Part shown: positions 28,026 to 33,140 of the stretch, piece by piece
How positions within the stretch are numbered: the stretch's first letter is position 1
Layout: every line of letters starts with the position of its first letter
Position numbers and translations under genes: made by a program
From: Sharpea azabuensis DSM 18934
GTDB lineage: Bacteria; Bacillota_I; Bacilli_A; Erysipelotrichales; Coprobacillaceae
Length of the DNA stretch: 40,481 bases
Direction of reading: 5' to 3'
Assembly (NCBI RefSeq): GCF_000702165.1
Contig: NZ_JNKU01000025.1
Span: 1-40,481, forward strand
The notes under the pieces: generated by a model
Seen by the model: only the letters and a program-made list of their open reading frames with translations
The model's database searches: none
Told to the model about the DNA's origin: nothing

Positions 28026-29453
28026 ATGTTCATGGATGAATTTTTAAGAGAAATCTATGTAGCCATATTTGCAAAATGGATTCAATTGCAGGATCATGGC
28101 GATATTGGTGTGACAGAAGGCAAGGTTGGAGAAAATACTGCCCTTGATTTTGATACAGCTGGAGCTAAAGGCCAGGTTGTATTTCACCAGGATAATTCCA
28201 TCATAGAATTCTCAATTACCAATAAGAAGAACCAGAATATTGAATTCTATCTCCATTTTCAATTACAGACTCTTAAACATGCAGTTGGTATTTATCAAGA
28301 GTTTATGGATATCATGCATCATGTGGATGATCATAAGACTGTCAAGGTCCTCTTATCATGTTCCTCAGGTCTAACGACAAGCTTCTTTGCCCAGGAACTC
28401 AATAAAGGTGTACAAACATTGAATCTTGATTATGAATTCTCAGCCGTTGCTTACAATGAATTAGCAGATGCTGGAATGAATTATGACATGATTTTACTTG
28501 CCCCACAGATAGGCTATCAGCTTGCCCGTGTACGCTCTATTTTCCATCGTATTCCTGTGCTGACTTTGCCTTCAGCAATCTTTGCGAAATATGATGTTGG
28601 TGCTACCATTGACCTGATTAAAGAAACTCTCACCCAGGCGAAACCAGAGAAAAAGGAAGAAGCATTACCAACATTATCCCTTAATTATGACAAAAAGATT
28701 TTAGCGATTGGTATATTAAAGAATTATCGTCATACCCATATCCATTATCGTGTCTATCAGAATGCTGAAGTGCTATTGGATGGTGAGAGAATCCATGATC
28801 AGCTCAATCTGCGTGATCTCAACGATATTATTGACTATGTCTTATTAGAACATTCCGATATTCATTATGTCGGTATTGGGGCACCAGGTATTATTCATTA
28901 TGGCTTTATGACTAATGAAAATGAAGGCTTTGATTATACGGATGTGGCTGGTTATCTTAAAAGCAAGCATCCAGAACTTGGCTTTTCTCTTGATAATGAT
29001 GTCAATGCTGTAGCAGCAGGTCTTAATGTGCTTCAGGATGACTGTGACTCGGTCAGTTTCTATTTCCTGCCAAGAGGACATAATCGGGGTGGGGCAGGTA
29101 CAATCTTCCACGACCGGGTTATTAAGGGCTATATGAATATTGCTGGTGAAACACAATATTTGCCTTTGACCTACAGTGATGATCCAGCAATACTTGCCCG
29201 CTATGAAGAAGGCGCTAAGGAAGTTGTGGCTAAGAATCTTGTGGCCTTAATTGCGACAATTGGACCACAATTATTGACCTATTATTGTTCCAATGTACCA
29301 AGTGTTGATGAACTTGTGGAAGAAATGGCAAAATATATTCCAAAGAAGTACATCCCGCCTGTAAGAAAGATTGAAAATCTTAAAGAATTCATTCTTTTTG
29401 GGGAAATGATTATGTGTATCAATCGTATTAGAGATTGTAAAGGAAATATGTAA
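28026..29453 (+). CDS. PTS EIIB-like / ROK-like fusion protein of unknown function
   Basis: The protein is 475 aa with three parts. Residues 1-102 match no family I recognise. About 105-205 is a lactose/cellobiose-type PTS IIB fold: VKVLLSCSSGLTTSFFAQEL with the phospho-accepting Cys112, then YDMILLAPQIGYQLARV, which corresponds to the LLgPQvrY element. About 222-475 resembles the ROK sugar-kinase/ASKHA fold: YVGIGAPGII, SLDNDVNAVAAGL and NRGGAGTIFHDRVIKG. The ROK phosphate loop (DxGGT) is replaced by AIGILKNYRH, and the Cys/His zinc motif of ROK kinases is missing, so catalysis is doubtful. No HTH is seen. It may be a phosphorylation-dependent sugar sensor. GAGGGG precedes ATG 28026. Confidence 0.7.
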   Translation: MFMDEFLREIYVAIFAKWIQLQDHGDIGVTEGKVGENTALDFDTAGAKGQVVFHQDNSIIEFSITNKKNQNIEFYLHFQLQTLKHAVGIYQEFMDIMHHVDDHKTVKVLLSCSSGLTTSFFAQELNKGVQTLNLDYEFSAVAYNELADAGMNYDMILLAPQIGYQLARVRSIFHRIPVLTLPSAIFAKYDVGATIDLIKETLTQAKPEKKEEALPTLSLNYDKKILAIGILKNYRHTHIHYRVYQNAEVLLDGERIHDQLNLRDLNDIIDYVLLEHSDIHYVGIGAPGIIHYGFMTNENEGFDYTDVAGYLKSKHPELGFSLDNDVNAVAAGLNVLQDDCDSVSFYFLPRGHNRGGAGTIFHDRVIKGYMNIAGETQYLPLTYSDDPAILARYEEGAKEVVAKNLVALIATIGPQLLTYYCSNVPSVDELVEEMAKYIPKKYIPPVRKIENLKEFILFGEMIMCINRIRDCKGNM

Positions 29454-29464
29454 GGAGTGATAAC

Positions 29465-30751
29465 ATGAAATATGCTTTTATAAATGGTCATATCTTGGAT
29501 GGTAGTGAACATATGGAAGTCATCTCCCATAAAGTCATTCTCACCAACAATGATAAAATAGAATCCATCACTGATGAAAGCACATCACGGGCTGGTTATC
29601 AGGAAGTTGATTTACAAGGGGCATTCATTATGCCTGGCTTGATCAATATGCATGTCCATCTTCCTGGAAGTGGCAAACCTAAAAGAAAACAGAAAGATAG
29701 TGCGAAGGCAGCTGAGATGGCAACACGCAATAAGCTTTTTCGACATATGTCCATGAAAATGTGTGAAAACTATGCTCGAACGGAATTAATGAGTGGTGTA
29801 ACGACAATCAGAACTGTCGGTGGGCTATTGGACTATGATACGCAAATAAGAGATAAAATTAATCGTGGTGAACTTGTTGGACCGCGTATTCTTACGAGCA
29901 ATCAGGCGATTACAGTTGAAGGTGGTCATATGGCCGGCTCTGTTGCACGTGTTGTTGGCAATGAAAAAGAAGCACGCCAGGCTGTTGATAACCTTGTTGA
30001 ACAGCATGTAGATTTTATTAAGCTGATGATTACTGGTGGGGTTATGGATGCGACTGAAAAGGGTGGCGCTGGAGCTTTGAAAATGCCCCCTGAAATCATT
30101 AAGGCGGCTTGTGATGAGGCTCATCGTAATAACTTGATTGTTGCTGCCCATGTGGAATCAAGTGAAGGTGTTCGTGTTGCCTTAGAGAATGGTGTGGATT
30201 CCATTGAACATGGGGCTATGTGTGATGAAGAAATCATTGATCTTTTTAAAAAGCGTCATGCCTTTCTTACAACAACTATTTCACCAGCACTTCCTTTTGC
30301 CTTGTTCGATCGTAAGATTTCTCATTGTAATGAAATCCAGCAATATAATGGCAAATTGGTCTTTGATGGCATTATTGATAATGCCAAAAAAGCCCTCGCC
30401 AACAATATCCCCGTGGCTCTAGGAACAGATACCGCTTGTCCCTATGTGACACATTATGATATGTGGCGTGAGCTTATCTACTTTGTCAAGTACTGTGGTG
30501 TTTCTCCACGCTATGCCCTCTATAGTGCAACATTGGGTAATGCGAAATTATTGAATGTCGGCAAGATCACAGGCTCTATAACAGCTGGTAAATATGCCGA
30601 TATGATTGTCACAAAGATCAATCCACTTGATGATCTTTCAACACTCAGTAATGTGACGCATGTCATCATGCGTGGCAAGCTTTATAAACCTGATTATATC
30701 AAGAAATATGCAGAGGTCGAACGTCAGCTTGATCCTTTCTGTAAACTCTAG
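29465..30751 (+). CDS. Metal-dependent amidohydrolase (imidazolonepropionase/prolidase-like)
   Basis: The protein is 428 aa with the PF01979 TIM barrel: metal-binding His63 and His65 (NMHVHLPG), the bridging Lys in DFIKLMITGGV, His in VAAHVES, His in SIEHGAMCD and Asp in LGTDTACP. The C-terminal KYADMIVTKINPLDDLSTL closes the small beta-sandwich. Relatives hydrolyse cyclic amides or Xaa-Pro dipeptides; the substrate is open. TAAGGAG precedes ATG 29465, 11 bp after the EIIB/ROK gene, and a terminator follows, so it is the last gene of this group. Confidence 0.88.
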   Translation: MKYAFINGHILDGSEHMEVISHKVILTNNDKIESITDESTSRAGYQEVDLQGAFIMPGLINMHVHLPGSGKPKRKQKDSAKAAEMATRNKLFRHMSMKMCENYARTELMSGVTTIRTVGGLLDYDTQIRDKINRGELVGPRILTSNQAITVEGGHMAGSVARVVGNEKEARQAVDNLVEQHVDFIKLMITGGVMDATEKGGAGALKMPPEIIKAACDEAHRNNLIVAAHVESSEGVRVALENGVDSIEHGAMCDEEIIDLFKKRHAFLTTTISPALPFALFDRKISHCNEIQQYNGKLVFDGIIDNAKKALANNIPVALGTDTACPYVTHYDMWRELIYFVKYCGVSPRYALYSATLGNAKLLNVGKITGSITAGKYADMIVTKINPLDDLSTLSNVTHVIMRGKLYKPDYIKKYAEVERQLDPFCKL

Positions 30752-31181: not shown

Positions 31182-32144
31182 TTAATCTTTAATATATGAT
31201 TTTGAGATTTCCTTAATTGCTTTTTTCATCTTGTTGTCATAAACAGTGAAATGATACTTGTTTAAGTAGTATGCATTGATATCTGTTTTGACTTTATCAA
31301 GCTTATAAAGAGCAGAAACAATATCATCCTTATGGGCAGCACGATCAGTGTTATAAACATAAACAACAGCATAAGCACCTGTTGAAAGCTTTACAGCACT
31401 GCCATAGACGCCATCTTTTTTCATCTTATAGAGAGTACTTGCTTTCTTGACAAGATTGCTGTCAGCTGATGACTTTGTAGAAAGAATACCAACATCAGTA
31501 CTTGTGCTTGATGCATCCGCAAGTTTCTTATAGTCCTCTTCACTCTTGATTGACTGAATAGCTTTTAATGCCTGAGATTCTTTTTCATAAGTGAAATACT
31601 TGACATAGCTGACTTTATATTTGTCAATGGCTGTTGTGAACTTAGAAGTGAGATACTTCTTCACAAGGGCATTCTGTTTTGCGTTAGGTGTAAGTGTGGC
31701 TTTTCTGAAGGCTTCTTCAGAACTGTAGCCAACAGATTTCGCATAGTCCTTCACAGAACCCATATAATTCTTATATTGATCTTCAAGTGCTTTCGTCTCT
31801 GTTTTAATACTTGCCTTATCAGCTTTTGTTGTAAGTTCTTTGTCAGCAATCTTCGTTAATGCCTGGCTGACAATTTCACTTGCGCCACTACCATCCATTA
31901 AATACTCATAATAGCCTTGCTTGCTGACGGTCGTATCGCCAGTAATGAGATCTTTCGATCCATCCGTTACCTTAGAAACATAATCAGTTTCTTTTGTATT
32001 TTTCACATAGTAGTAACCACCAATACAACCAGCTGCTAATACAATGGCTAAAACAAGACCAACAATCGCTTTTTTATTAATTGGTTTTTTTGTCTTTTTA
32101 ACAGGAACCTTATGGACCTGTCTAAATTCTTTATTTTCGTCCAT
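31182..32144 (-). CDS. Membrane-anchored foldase-like protein (SurA/PrsA-like)
   Basis: The protein is 320 aa: a basic cytoplasmic start (KVPVKKTKKPINKK), one transmembrane helix (about 26-47, IVGLVLAIVLAAGCIGGYYY), then an extracytoplasmic lysine-rich helical part (about 60-170) like the SurA/PrsA N-domain, and a segment about 175-280 (SYVKYFTYEKESQALKAIQ ... VGILSTKSS ... GVYGSAVKLSTGAYAVVYV) laid out like a parvulin domain but weakly conserved. The helix is followed by no lipobox. It starts 2 bp after its upstream partner stops, so both foldases form one operon. Its end abuts an IS3 remnant and no terminator is visible after it, so the native 3' end may be disturbed. Confidence 0.7.
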   Translation of the reverse strand: MDENKEFRQVHKVPVKKTKKPINKKAIVGLVLAIVLAAGCIGGYYYVKNTKETDYVSKVTDGSKDLITGDTTVSKQGYYEYLMDGSGASEIVSQALTKIADKELTTKADKASIKTETKALEDQYKNYMGSVKDYAKSVGYSSEEAFRKATLTPNAKQNALVKKYLTSKFTTAIDKYKVSYVKYFTYEKESQALKAIQSIKSEEDYKKLADASSTSTDVGILSTKSSADSNLVKKASTLYKMKKDGVYGSAVKLSTGAYAVVYVYNTDRAAHKDDIVSALYKLDKVKTDINAYYLNKYHFTVYDNKMKKAIKEISKSYIKD

Positions 32145-32146
32145 AA

Positions 32147-33115
32147 TTATTTCCTTTCCTCAGCTCTGTTTTTAAGATTTTCATCAATCACTTTCTTGAT
32201 GGCTTCTTTTGTAGCTTTGTCTTGATAAGTGATCTTATATGTCTTGAAGGCTTCATAAACCATATAGTTATCATAAGTGATGAGTGGTGAATTTGCATCA
32301 ACATTCTTTAATTCCTTCTTGATCTTTTCCTTATCAGTTGAAGAACAGTAAAGGAAATAATAACCATTTGTGCCCTTGATGGCTTCACTTGTCTGTCCGG
32401 CTGTTAAAGTCAAAGCCGTACTTGCGACATCACTGCCATATGTATCGGATAAAGAACTTGTTGTATCAACAATACCTAGGCTGCCTTTAGCATTCTTTGT
32501 ATCGTTGTCATCAGAATAACTTTTCGCAATATCACCAAAGTTCTTGCCACTCTTCAATAAGTCTTTTACTTCCTGCAGCTTGTCACTTTCCGTATTTGTT
32601 GGTGCATCTACAGATGCCATAGAAACCTTGATAATAGAAATATAACGTGGAGTTGCCATCTTGTAGTAATCATCAAAGACAGCATTGAAATGTTTCTTGA
32701 CATAGTTCTTCATCATTTCCGCATACTGAAGAGAGTAAACAACTTTCTTACGATAATCAGCAATGCTTGAATATCCAGAAGATTTCAAGTCCTTTTCTAG
32801 CTGCTTCTCATATTCACTTTCACTATATTGTGATTTGTAGCTTTCTTTAATAGAATCAACCATGTTGTCAGCATTTTCTTCCATAGCTTTCGTTGCTGGA
32901 TACTTGCTATGAAGAAGCTGATCTAGGGTGTAATTGAAAAGCTGTGTACGTCCTGAAGATGTTGAAGATATGCTTGAATAAATACTGTCGGCATAGACAT
33001 TATCACCATCTAAGGATGCCACAACACTCTTGTTATTGACAGTTTTGCCTGCACTACAGCCAGACAAAAGCATCATGCCTGTAATTGTAAGACATGTTAG
33101 TCTTTTTACGTTCAT
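32147..33115 (-). CDS. prsA: PrsA-like peptidyl-prolyl isomerase lipoprotein
   Basis: The protein is 322 aa with signal peptide and lipobox LLSGC (Cys20), so it is anchored outside the membrane where it would assist folding of exported proteins. It has an N-terminal SurA-like helical domain (about 35-165) and a parvulin-type region (about 165-270: YISIIKVSM, VKDLLKSGKNFGDIAKSYSDD, GSLGIVDTTSSL, TAGQTSEAIKGTNGYYFLYC) that keeps the family spacing but has lost some typical residues. AAGGAGG precedes the ATG at 33113-33115; an upstream in-frame start at 33136 is rejected. First gene of the minus-strand foldase pair. Confidence 0.82.
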   Translation of the reverse strand: MNVKRLTCLTITGMMLLSGCSAGKTVNNKSVVASLDGDNVYADSIYSSISSTSSGRTQLFNYTLDQLLHSKYPATKAMEENADNMVDSIKESYKSQYSESEYEKQLEKDLKSSGYSSIADYRKKVVYSLQYAEMMKNYVKKHFNAVFDDYYKMATPRYISIIKVSMASVDAPTNTESDKLQEVKDLLKSGKNFGDIAKSYSDDNDTKNAKGSLGIVDTTSSLSDTYGSDVASTALTLTAGQTSEAIKGTNGYYFLYCSSTDKEKIKKELKNVDANSPLITYDNYMVYEAFKTYKITYQDKATKEAIKKVIDENLKNRAEERK

Positions 33116-33140
33116 ACAAACCTCCTTAAGTAACAATCTT

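Follow-up and report, generated by a model that had tools for sequence, protein, structure and literature searches.

A fused N-domain, PTS IIB and degenerate ROK protein of Sharpea azabuensis: a candidate PTS-coupled sugar sensor from a conserved paralogous family

Members of the ROK family and EIIB components of the PTS are known to meet in E. coli, where the ROK regulator Mlc is directly controlled by EIICB-Glc: the dephosphorylated EIICB-Glc binds Mlc, a precedent for ROK-EIIB contact that involves another EIIB type than the one described here (PMC3901232). The ROK signature is made up of DxGxT, a catalytic Asp, ExGH and a Cys-rich zinc motif (PMC5458393), the roles of which have been described (PMC5458393, PMC2742894). 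The DNA studied here, a stretch of 40,481 nucleotides from Sharpea azabuensis DSM 18934 (hereafter the window), encodes a 475-amino-acid protein (28026-29453, forward strand) in which an N-terminal domain, a PTS IIB domain and a degenerate ROK domain are fused. With the lactose/cellobiose/chitobiose EIIB proteins of the PTS (ChbB, 1h9c; CelA, 2l2q) this protein has in common the phospho-Cys loop, the LxPQIxY motif, the domain length and PF02302, but it is joined to the N-domain and to a predicted ROK pseudo-kinase, and no EIIC is encoded with it. It shares the ROK domain with the repressors of the Mlc, XylR and NagC type, and its split relatives (see below) have HTH and ROK regions that both align with XylR and Mlc, the latter being itself controlled by an EIIB. 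Contrary to these repressors, the fused form lacks the HTH, DxGxT and the zinc motif, and its IIB domain is covalently joined and of lac/cel rather than Glc type. The MtlR/LicR and PCVR regulators (AtxA, Mga) similarly have an EIIB-like domain in a non-transport regulatory protein; yet theirs is of Gat type, whereas the one studied here is of lac/cel type and stands beside a ROK domain that replaces PRD sensing, and neither the 475-residue protein nor the relatives profiled gave any PRD or HTH match in Pfam. Finally, the ROK kinases (NanK, 5nck; glucokinase, 2qm1) match at fold level in profile comparisons and have the same Asn-Asp and Glu in the sugar site, whereas the ATP motif is absent here and the His of ExGH is replaced by a Tyr, as also in LmNanK (PMC5458393).

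The open reading frame, whose coordinates are exact, is a genuine gene. It starts 4 nt past an HD-domain gene and is followed after 11 nt by a prolidase-like amidohydrolase gene (29465-30751, forward strand), the closest solved relative of which is 2p9b, a possible prolidase. This neighbour is kept in the clade of the window: the amidohydrolase directly follows the fused gene in the window and in Eggerthia (L054), is separated from it by IS genes at L053 and lies one gene away at L056. The orthologue from Sharpea porci is 93% identical to the window gene, and the dN/dS between them, estimated by the Nei-Gojobori method under partial saturation of synonymous sites, is 0.05 overall (N-domain, 0.058; IIB, 0.024; ROK, 0.051). 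The segment with the weakest dN/dS constraint, measured on few sites, is a linker (residues 201-222; 28626-28691) that is also variable in the alignment of relatives. This constraint, together with the match of 30/30 relatives to PTS_IIB (PF02302) and of 28/30 to ROK (PF00480, at E 0.1), indicates that the protein is not a chance reading frame. A Pfam scan of 28 window proteins found no PTS gene, in keeping with the remark of the first-pass annotation that no PTS transporter lies nearby; among these 28 proteins, an EIIC or EIIA partner is neither fused to the protein nor encoded alongside it. Elsewhere in the window, two adjoining genes on the reverse strand (31182-33136) encode probable exported proteins; one of them matches PPIC-type peptidyl-prolyl isomerases (7.5e-10), and nothing in Pfam passed its cut-off for the other.

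The first-pass annotation, which was made from the letters alone, had described a lac/cel-type IIB segment with a Cys112 loop followed by a ROK-like half lacking DxGGT, the zinc Cys motif and an HTH, and all these observations were confirmed. The IIB domain (residues 105-200; 28338-28625) is matched by PTS_IIB at residues 107-177 (E 8.1e-8; 33.2 bits for a curated cut-off of 23.6). It also matches the NCBIfam lac/cel IIB family at 7.9e-14, a score under the equivalog-style cut-off of that family, and a 30-row profile of relatives matched the chitobiose IIB 1h9c in the PDB at 6.8e-14. The stretches SCSSGLTTS and LLAPQIGYQL respectively align with the active-site Cys and with the LxPQIxY motif of the solved chitobiose/cellobiose IIB proteins, which places the phospho-acceptor Cys in a C[ST]xG loop. 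This residue, Cys112 (codon 28359-28361), is the predicted phosphorylation site on the grounds of this alignment and of its conservation: it is invariant in the 83/83 relatives inspected (46/46 fused proteins, 18/18 N+IIB proteins without ROK and 19/19 proteins from the sister family), and the relatives also conserve its loop, C[ST]x[GA][LMIF]TT, together with the APQ motif.

The ROK (ASKHA) domain (residues 223-470; 28692-29435) is more degenerate. PF00480 matches residues 275-376 (E 7.6e-6; 26.1 bits for a curated cut-off of 22.9), the 30-row profile matched the N-acetylmannosamine kinase NanK (5nck) at 1e-12, and the motifs PGI (287-289) and DNDVNA (323-328) are present. The sugar-binding and catalytic-base positions Asn324-Asp325 (28995-29000) are kept, with Asn in 45/46 fused proteins at the former; the latter is Asp in 34/46 and Asn in 10, and the catalytic Asp is strict in 7/7 split and 18/18 HTH-only ROKs. 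Within ExGH, the sugar-binding Glu375 (29148-29150) is kept (45/46 fused proteins) and Tyr378 stands for the His. DxGxT is absent from the protein (residues 225-238 read ILAIGILKNYRHTH), as is the Cys-rich zinc motif CxCG after residue 375, and Pfam gave no HTH match over the 475 residues. Some active ROK kinases also have a Tyr in the place of the ExGH His, as LmNanK does, and lack zinc (PMC5458393), which leaves the loss of the ATP motif as the one firm argument against kinase activity. DxGxT is missing not only in the fused relatives but also in the split and HTH-only ones, so its loss preceded the association with IIB and is independent of it. The sequence thus suggests that the ROK half is a pseudo-kinase which kept its sugar-binding residues and lost its ATP site. 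Profile-level homology supports both the IIB and the ASKHA folds proposed in the first-pass annotation; the AlphaFold model of the whole protein (three sequences) has a pLDDT of 37. As far as could be tested, none of the three outcomes which that annotation had named as contradicting it (no IIB fold around Cys112, no ASKHA fold in the C-terminal half, poor conservation of Cys112) was encountered.

The N-domain (residues 1-104; 28026-28337) had been left unassigned, and it matched nothing in Pfam or NCBIfam and nothing credible in the PDB. Its AlphaFold model (three sequences; pLDDT 79.4) has an alpha-beta5-alpha arrangement with a helix at 5-22, strands at 28-34, 37-43, 47-54, 59-66 and 72-79, and a helix at 83-102. 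Foldseek and VIA-align comparisons of this model to the PDB stayed within noise, with a best Foldseek E of 0.01 and a best Z of 6.0, which is no proof of a new fold. Two residues stand out by their conservation: Glu61 (codon 28206-28208), present in 44/46 fused proteins, and His77 (codon 28254-28256) in the motif FYLHF, invariant in the 45/45 fused rows with a residue at this position, in 18/18 N+IIB proteins and in 19/19 sister-family proteins. Both are invariant in a 26-row alignment of N-domains that are 21-45% identical to that of the window. The register of the strands suggests that residues 61 and 77 are opposed to each other across a hairpin made by the last two. An EIIA-Glc-like identity, considered for the motif HF..xT, was dropped as neither profile nor fold supported it. 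The N-domain is family-specific and always joined to IIB in family members, and it probably helps the IIB domain to receive or transmit its signal.

The full-length protein, whose named relatives are from Sharpea porci and Eggerthia catenaformis, matched 51/60 related genomes, and its family is large, with many paralogues; many of the matches in the sister family are weak and may correspond to ROK or IIB alone, so the N-domain profile was used as a clean marker. This profile matched 43/43 genomes from the bacterial family of the window and 43/273 from its sister family. All 18 matches in a sample of 392 genomes from the phylum belong to those two families, and no relative was found in viral contigs. 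The window protein belongs to an order-wide, strongly conserved paralogous family. N-domain frames in the listed genomes are either about 200-240 residues long (N+IIB) or about 470-500 (N+IIB+ROK); a few are shorter or longer, and those inspected proved to be pseudogenes, fragments or terminal extensions. Four layouts were distinguished: fused N-IIB-ROK (F), split (S), N+IIB alone (NB) and HTH-ROK without an N+IIB neighbour (H). In the split layout, found at seven loci from four genera (L033, L034, L035, L036, L038, L150 and L151), an N+IIB gene and a ROK gene with an N-terminal HTH adjoin each other on the same strand, with an overlap of at most 29 nt or a gap of at most 3 nt. The H genes (L133-L147 and L152) belong to the same ROK subfamily, mostly lie beside a PHP-domain gene and also lack the ATP motif. 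The individual Pfam HTH matches in S and H proteins are weak (HTH_24 in 11/20, best 8e-7), and their common profile can be aligned to XylR, Mlc and Lmo0178 starting at the N-terminus.

Some further arrangements recur around members of this family. In eight genomes from several genera, an N+IIB-only gene stands head to head with a calcineurin-like phosphoesterase gene, near genes for an HflX-like GTPase and a rubrerythrin-like protein (L178:6364-7940, where the phosphoesterase was tested with Pfam, L179:14946-16513, L180:18498-19901, L181:3763-5275, L182:3128-4666, L183:17429-18954, L184:15796-17323 and L187:11109-12627). Another conserved N+IIB-only gene has a maltose-acetyltransferase-like gene beside it, in many cases together with genes for PAP2 and a YdjC/ChbG-type deacetylase (L048:4959-7504, L181:14666-16406, L184:6778-9051 and L186:3274-5261). 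One clade of fused genes lies directly upstream of genes whose starts, judged by eye, resemble those of the NAD synthesis genes nadA and nadB (L065:5265-7689, L071:7503-9909 and L077:7536-9970). At L061:8444-10893 and L070:6928-9914 the same N-terminal stretch, MPAQTRIIHFYVCLGAAGGKECEVIM, starts the fused gene at one locus and another gene at the second; both loci are beside one transposase-like gene, and an IS end may supply the start. Finally, L037:6952-8360 comprises an N+IIB piece of 213 residues followed by a ROK piece of 197, which looks like a decayed fused gene.

The origin of the fusion was studied with a maximum likelihood phylogeny of 72 ROK halves and one kinase, which was rooted at its midpoint and in which the kinase outgroup joins a long branch. 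The tree entails one change each for F, S and H and groups S with F. S is supported at 98/86 and the branch uniting S and F at 88/98; for F the values are 78/75, with a single change in 88% of bootstraps, which gives moderate support to a single origin of the fused form. HTH followed by ROK is the common layout of ROK repressors. Given the midpoint root, the direction of change is taken from this layout: neighbouring N+IIB and HTH-ROK genes would have been fused with the loss of the HTH, probably once. No N-IIB-HTH-ROK intermediate was found among the long reading frames of the sister family (518-620 residues), the extra length of which is a terminal extension. Since the fusion would have joined an N+IIB gene to a neighbouring ROK repressor, the IIB module was probably already in contact with the ROK regulator beforehand.

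Several functions may be considered for such a protein, with some probability left for others than those discussed below. The first-pass annotation had suggested a sugar sensor that either reads PTS phosphorylation or is read out by it, and this is the best fit because the sugar residues have outlasted the ATP and zinc motifs, because the split relatives pair the IIB protein with an HTH-ROK, and because EI, HPr and lac/cel-type IIA are present in the genome; the phosphorylation, the ligand and the output are its inferred parts. In our formulation, which we consider to have an even chance of being correct, the protein would be a soluble PTS sensor of the cytosol without a transport role, in which the phosphorylation of EIIB is coupled to the binding of a sugar by the pseudo-kinase. 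It draws on the 83/83 conservation of Cys112, the retention of Asn324, Asp325 and Glu375, the loss of DxGxT and the seven split loci; the distance of most family genes from PTS genes speaks against it. A phosphorylated lac/cel-type IIA would transfer its phosphate to Cys112 of the IIB domain (residues 105-200), while the ROK cleft (223-470) would still bind a sugar or a sugar phosphate but would be unable to use ATP. If both events were allosterically coupled, a single protein could integrate PTS flux with the internal sugar level. As the HTH was lost, the fused protein would have to act on another protein, perhaps the neighbouring amidohydrolase in this clade. A phosphate route to Cys112 exists in the genome of the window, which has EI, four HPr-like and three lac/cel IIA matches. 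The component parts of this putative sensor are known, and their joining is not described in the literature searched, in which no ROK and IIB fusion was found; as the search covered only part of the literature, this is weak evidence.

Alternatively, the IIB domain could be a dimerisation or redox module in which Cys112 is kept for structure or a disulphide rather than for PTS phosphorylation. C402 of AtxA and C470 of RivR, in EIIB-Gat-like domains, have been implicated in dimerisation (PMC8560693), and the family mostly lies away from PTS operons: most of its genes do not adjoin PTS genes, and the paralogues elsewhere occupy varied places, some of them beside PTS genes, beta-glucosidases or RpiR regulators. 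Nevertheless, conservation extends beyond the one Cys to all of the active-site loop, C[ST]xGLTT, and to LxPQ, which a scaffold role would not lead one to expect, and free IIB genes are enriched nearby. Seven of 38 family genes, in seven genomes, have an ordinary IIB gene (the only kind counted) within 2.5 kb, where 1.0 would be expected (P 5e-5; the null is approximate, as it takes account of neither contig ends nor the relatedness of the genomes). A dimerisation or redox role thus seems rather unlikely.

Another possibility is that the HTH-less fused proteins are titrating partners which block HTH-ROK repressors from their own subfamily by binding to them at the ROK dimer surface. The common ROK ancestry of both forms and the coexistence of several fused paralogues with an HTH-ROK in many genomes would fit this scenario. 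In the genome of the window, both matches to this ROK subfamily are fused forms, the other ROK matches are near full-length kinase matches in open frames of 298-318 residues, and no ROK match has a length that would clearly mark it as an HTH-ROK repressor. The output there cannot therefore run through an HTH-ROK of this subfamily, yet the gene is under strong constraint; titration, already unlikely for this species, is improbable overall.

It is still harder to credit that the protein is an enzyme in which the ROK half replaces EIIC and phospho-Cys112 donates to a sugar in the ROK cleft, a soluble PEP-dependent kinase of cytosolic sugars with phosphate passing from IIA~P, or via His77 as an IIA-like acceptor, to Cys112 and then to the sugar. 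In the PTS it is indeed IIB~P that normally hands phosphate to the sugar, and the protein retains the Asn, Asp and Glu of the sugar site without having the ATP motif. This motif was, however, also lost in HTH-ROKs without IIB and so not by adaptation to IIB, and the catalytic Asp that is strict in split and HTH-only ROKs (25/25) is relaxed in the fused proteins.

It would seem that one order of gut bacteria has turned the pairing of ROK and EIIB into a permanent one by fusion, has multiplied the product to many paralogues in a genome and has dropped DNA binding. If this is true, these proteins would form a class of PTS-coupled sensors that act via something other than DNA binding. They are accompanied by a small N-domain of unassigned fold, whose nearly invariant Glu and invariant His adjoin the phospho-Cys domain, and their split relatives would allow a direct test of the contact between ROK and IIB.
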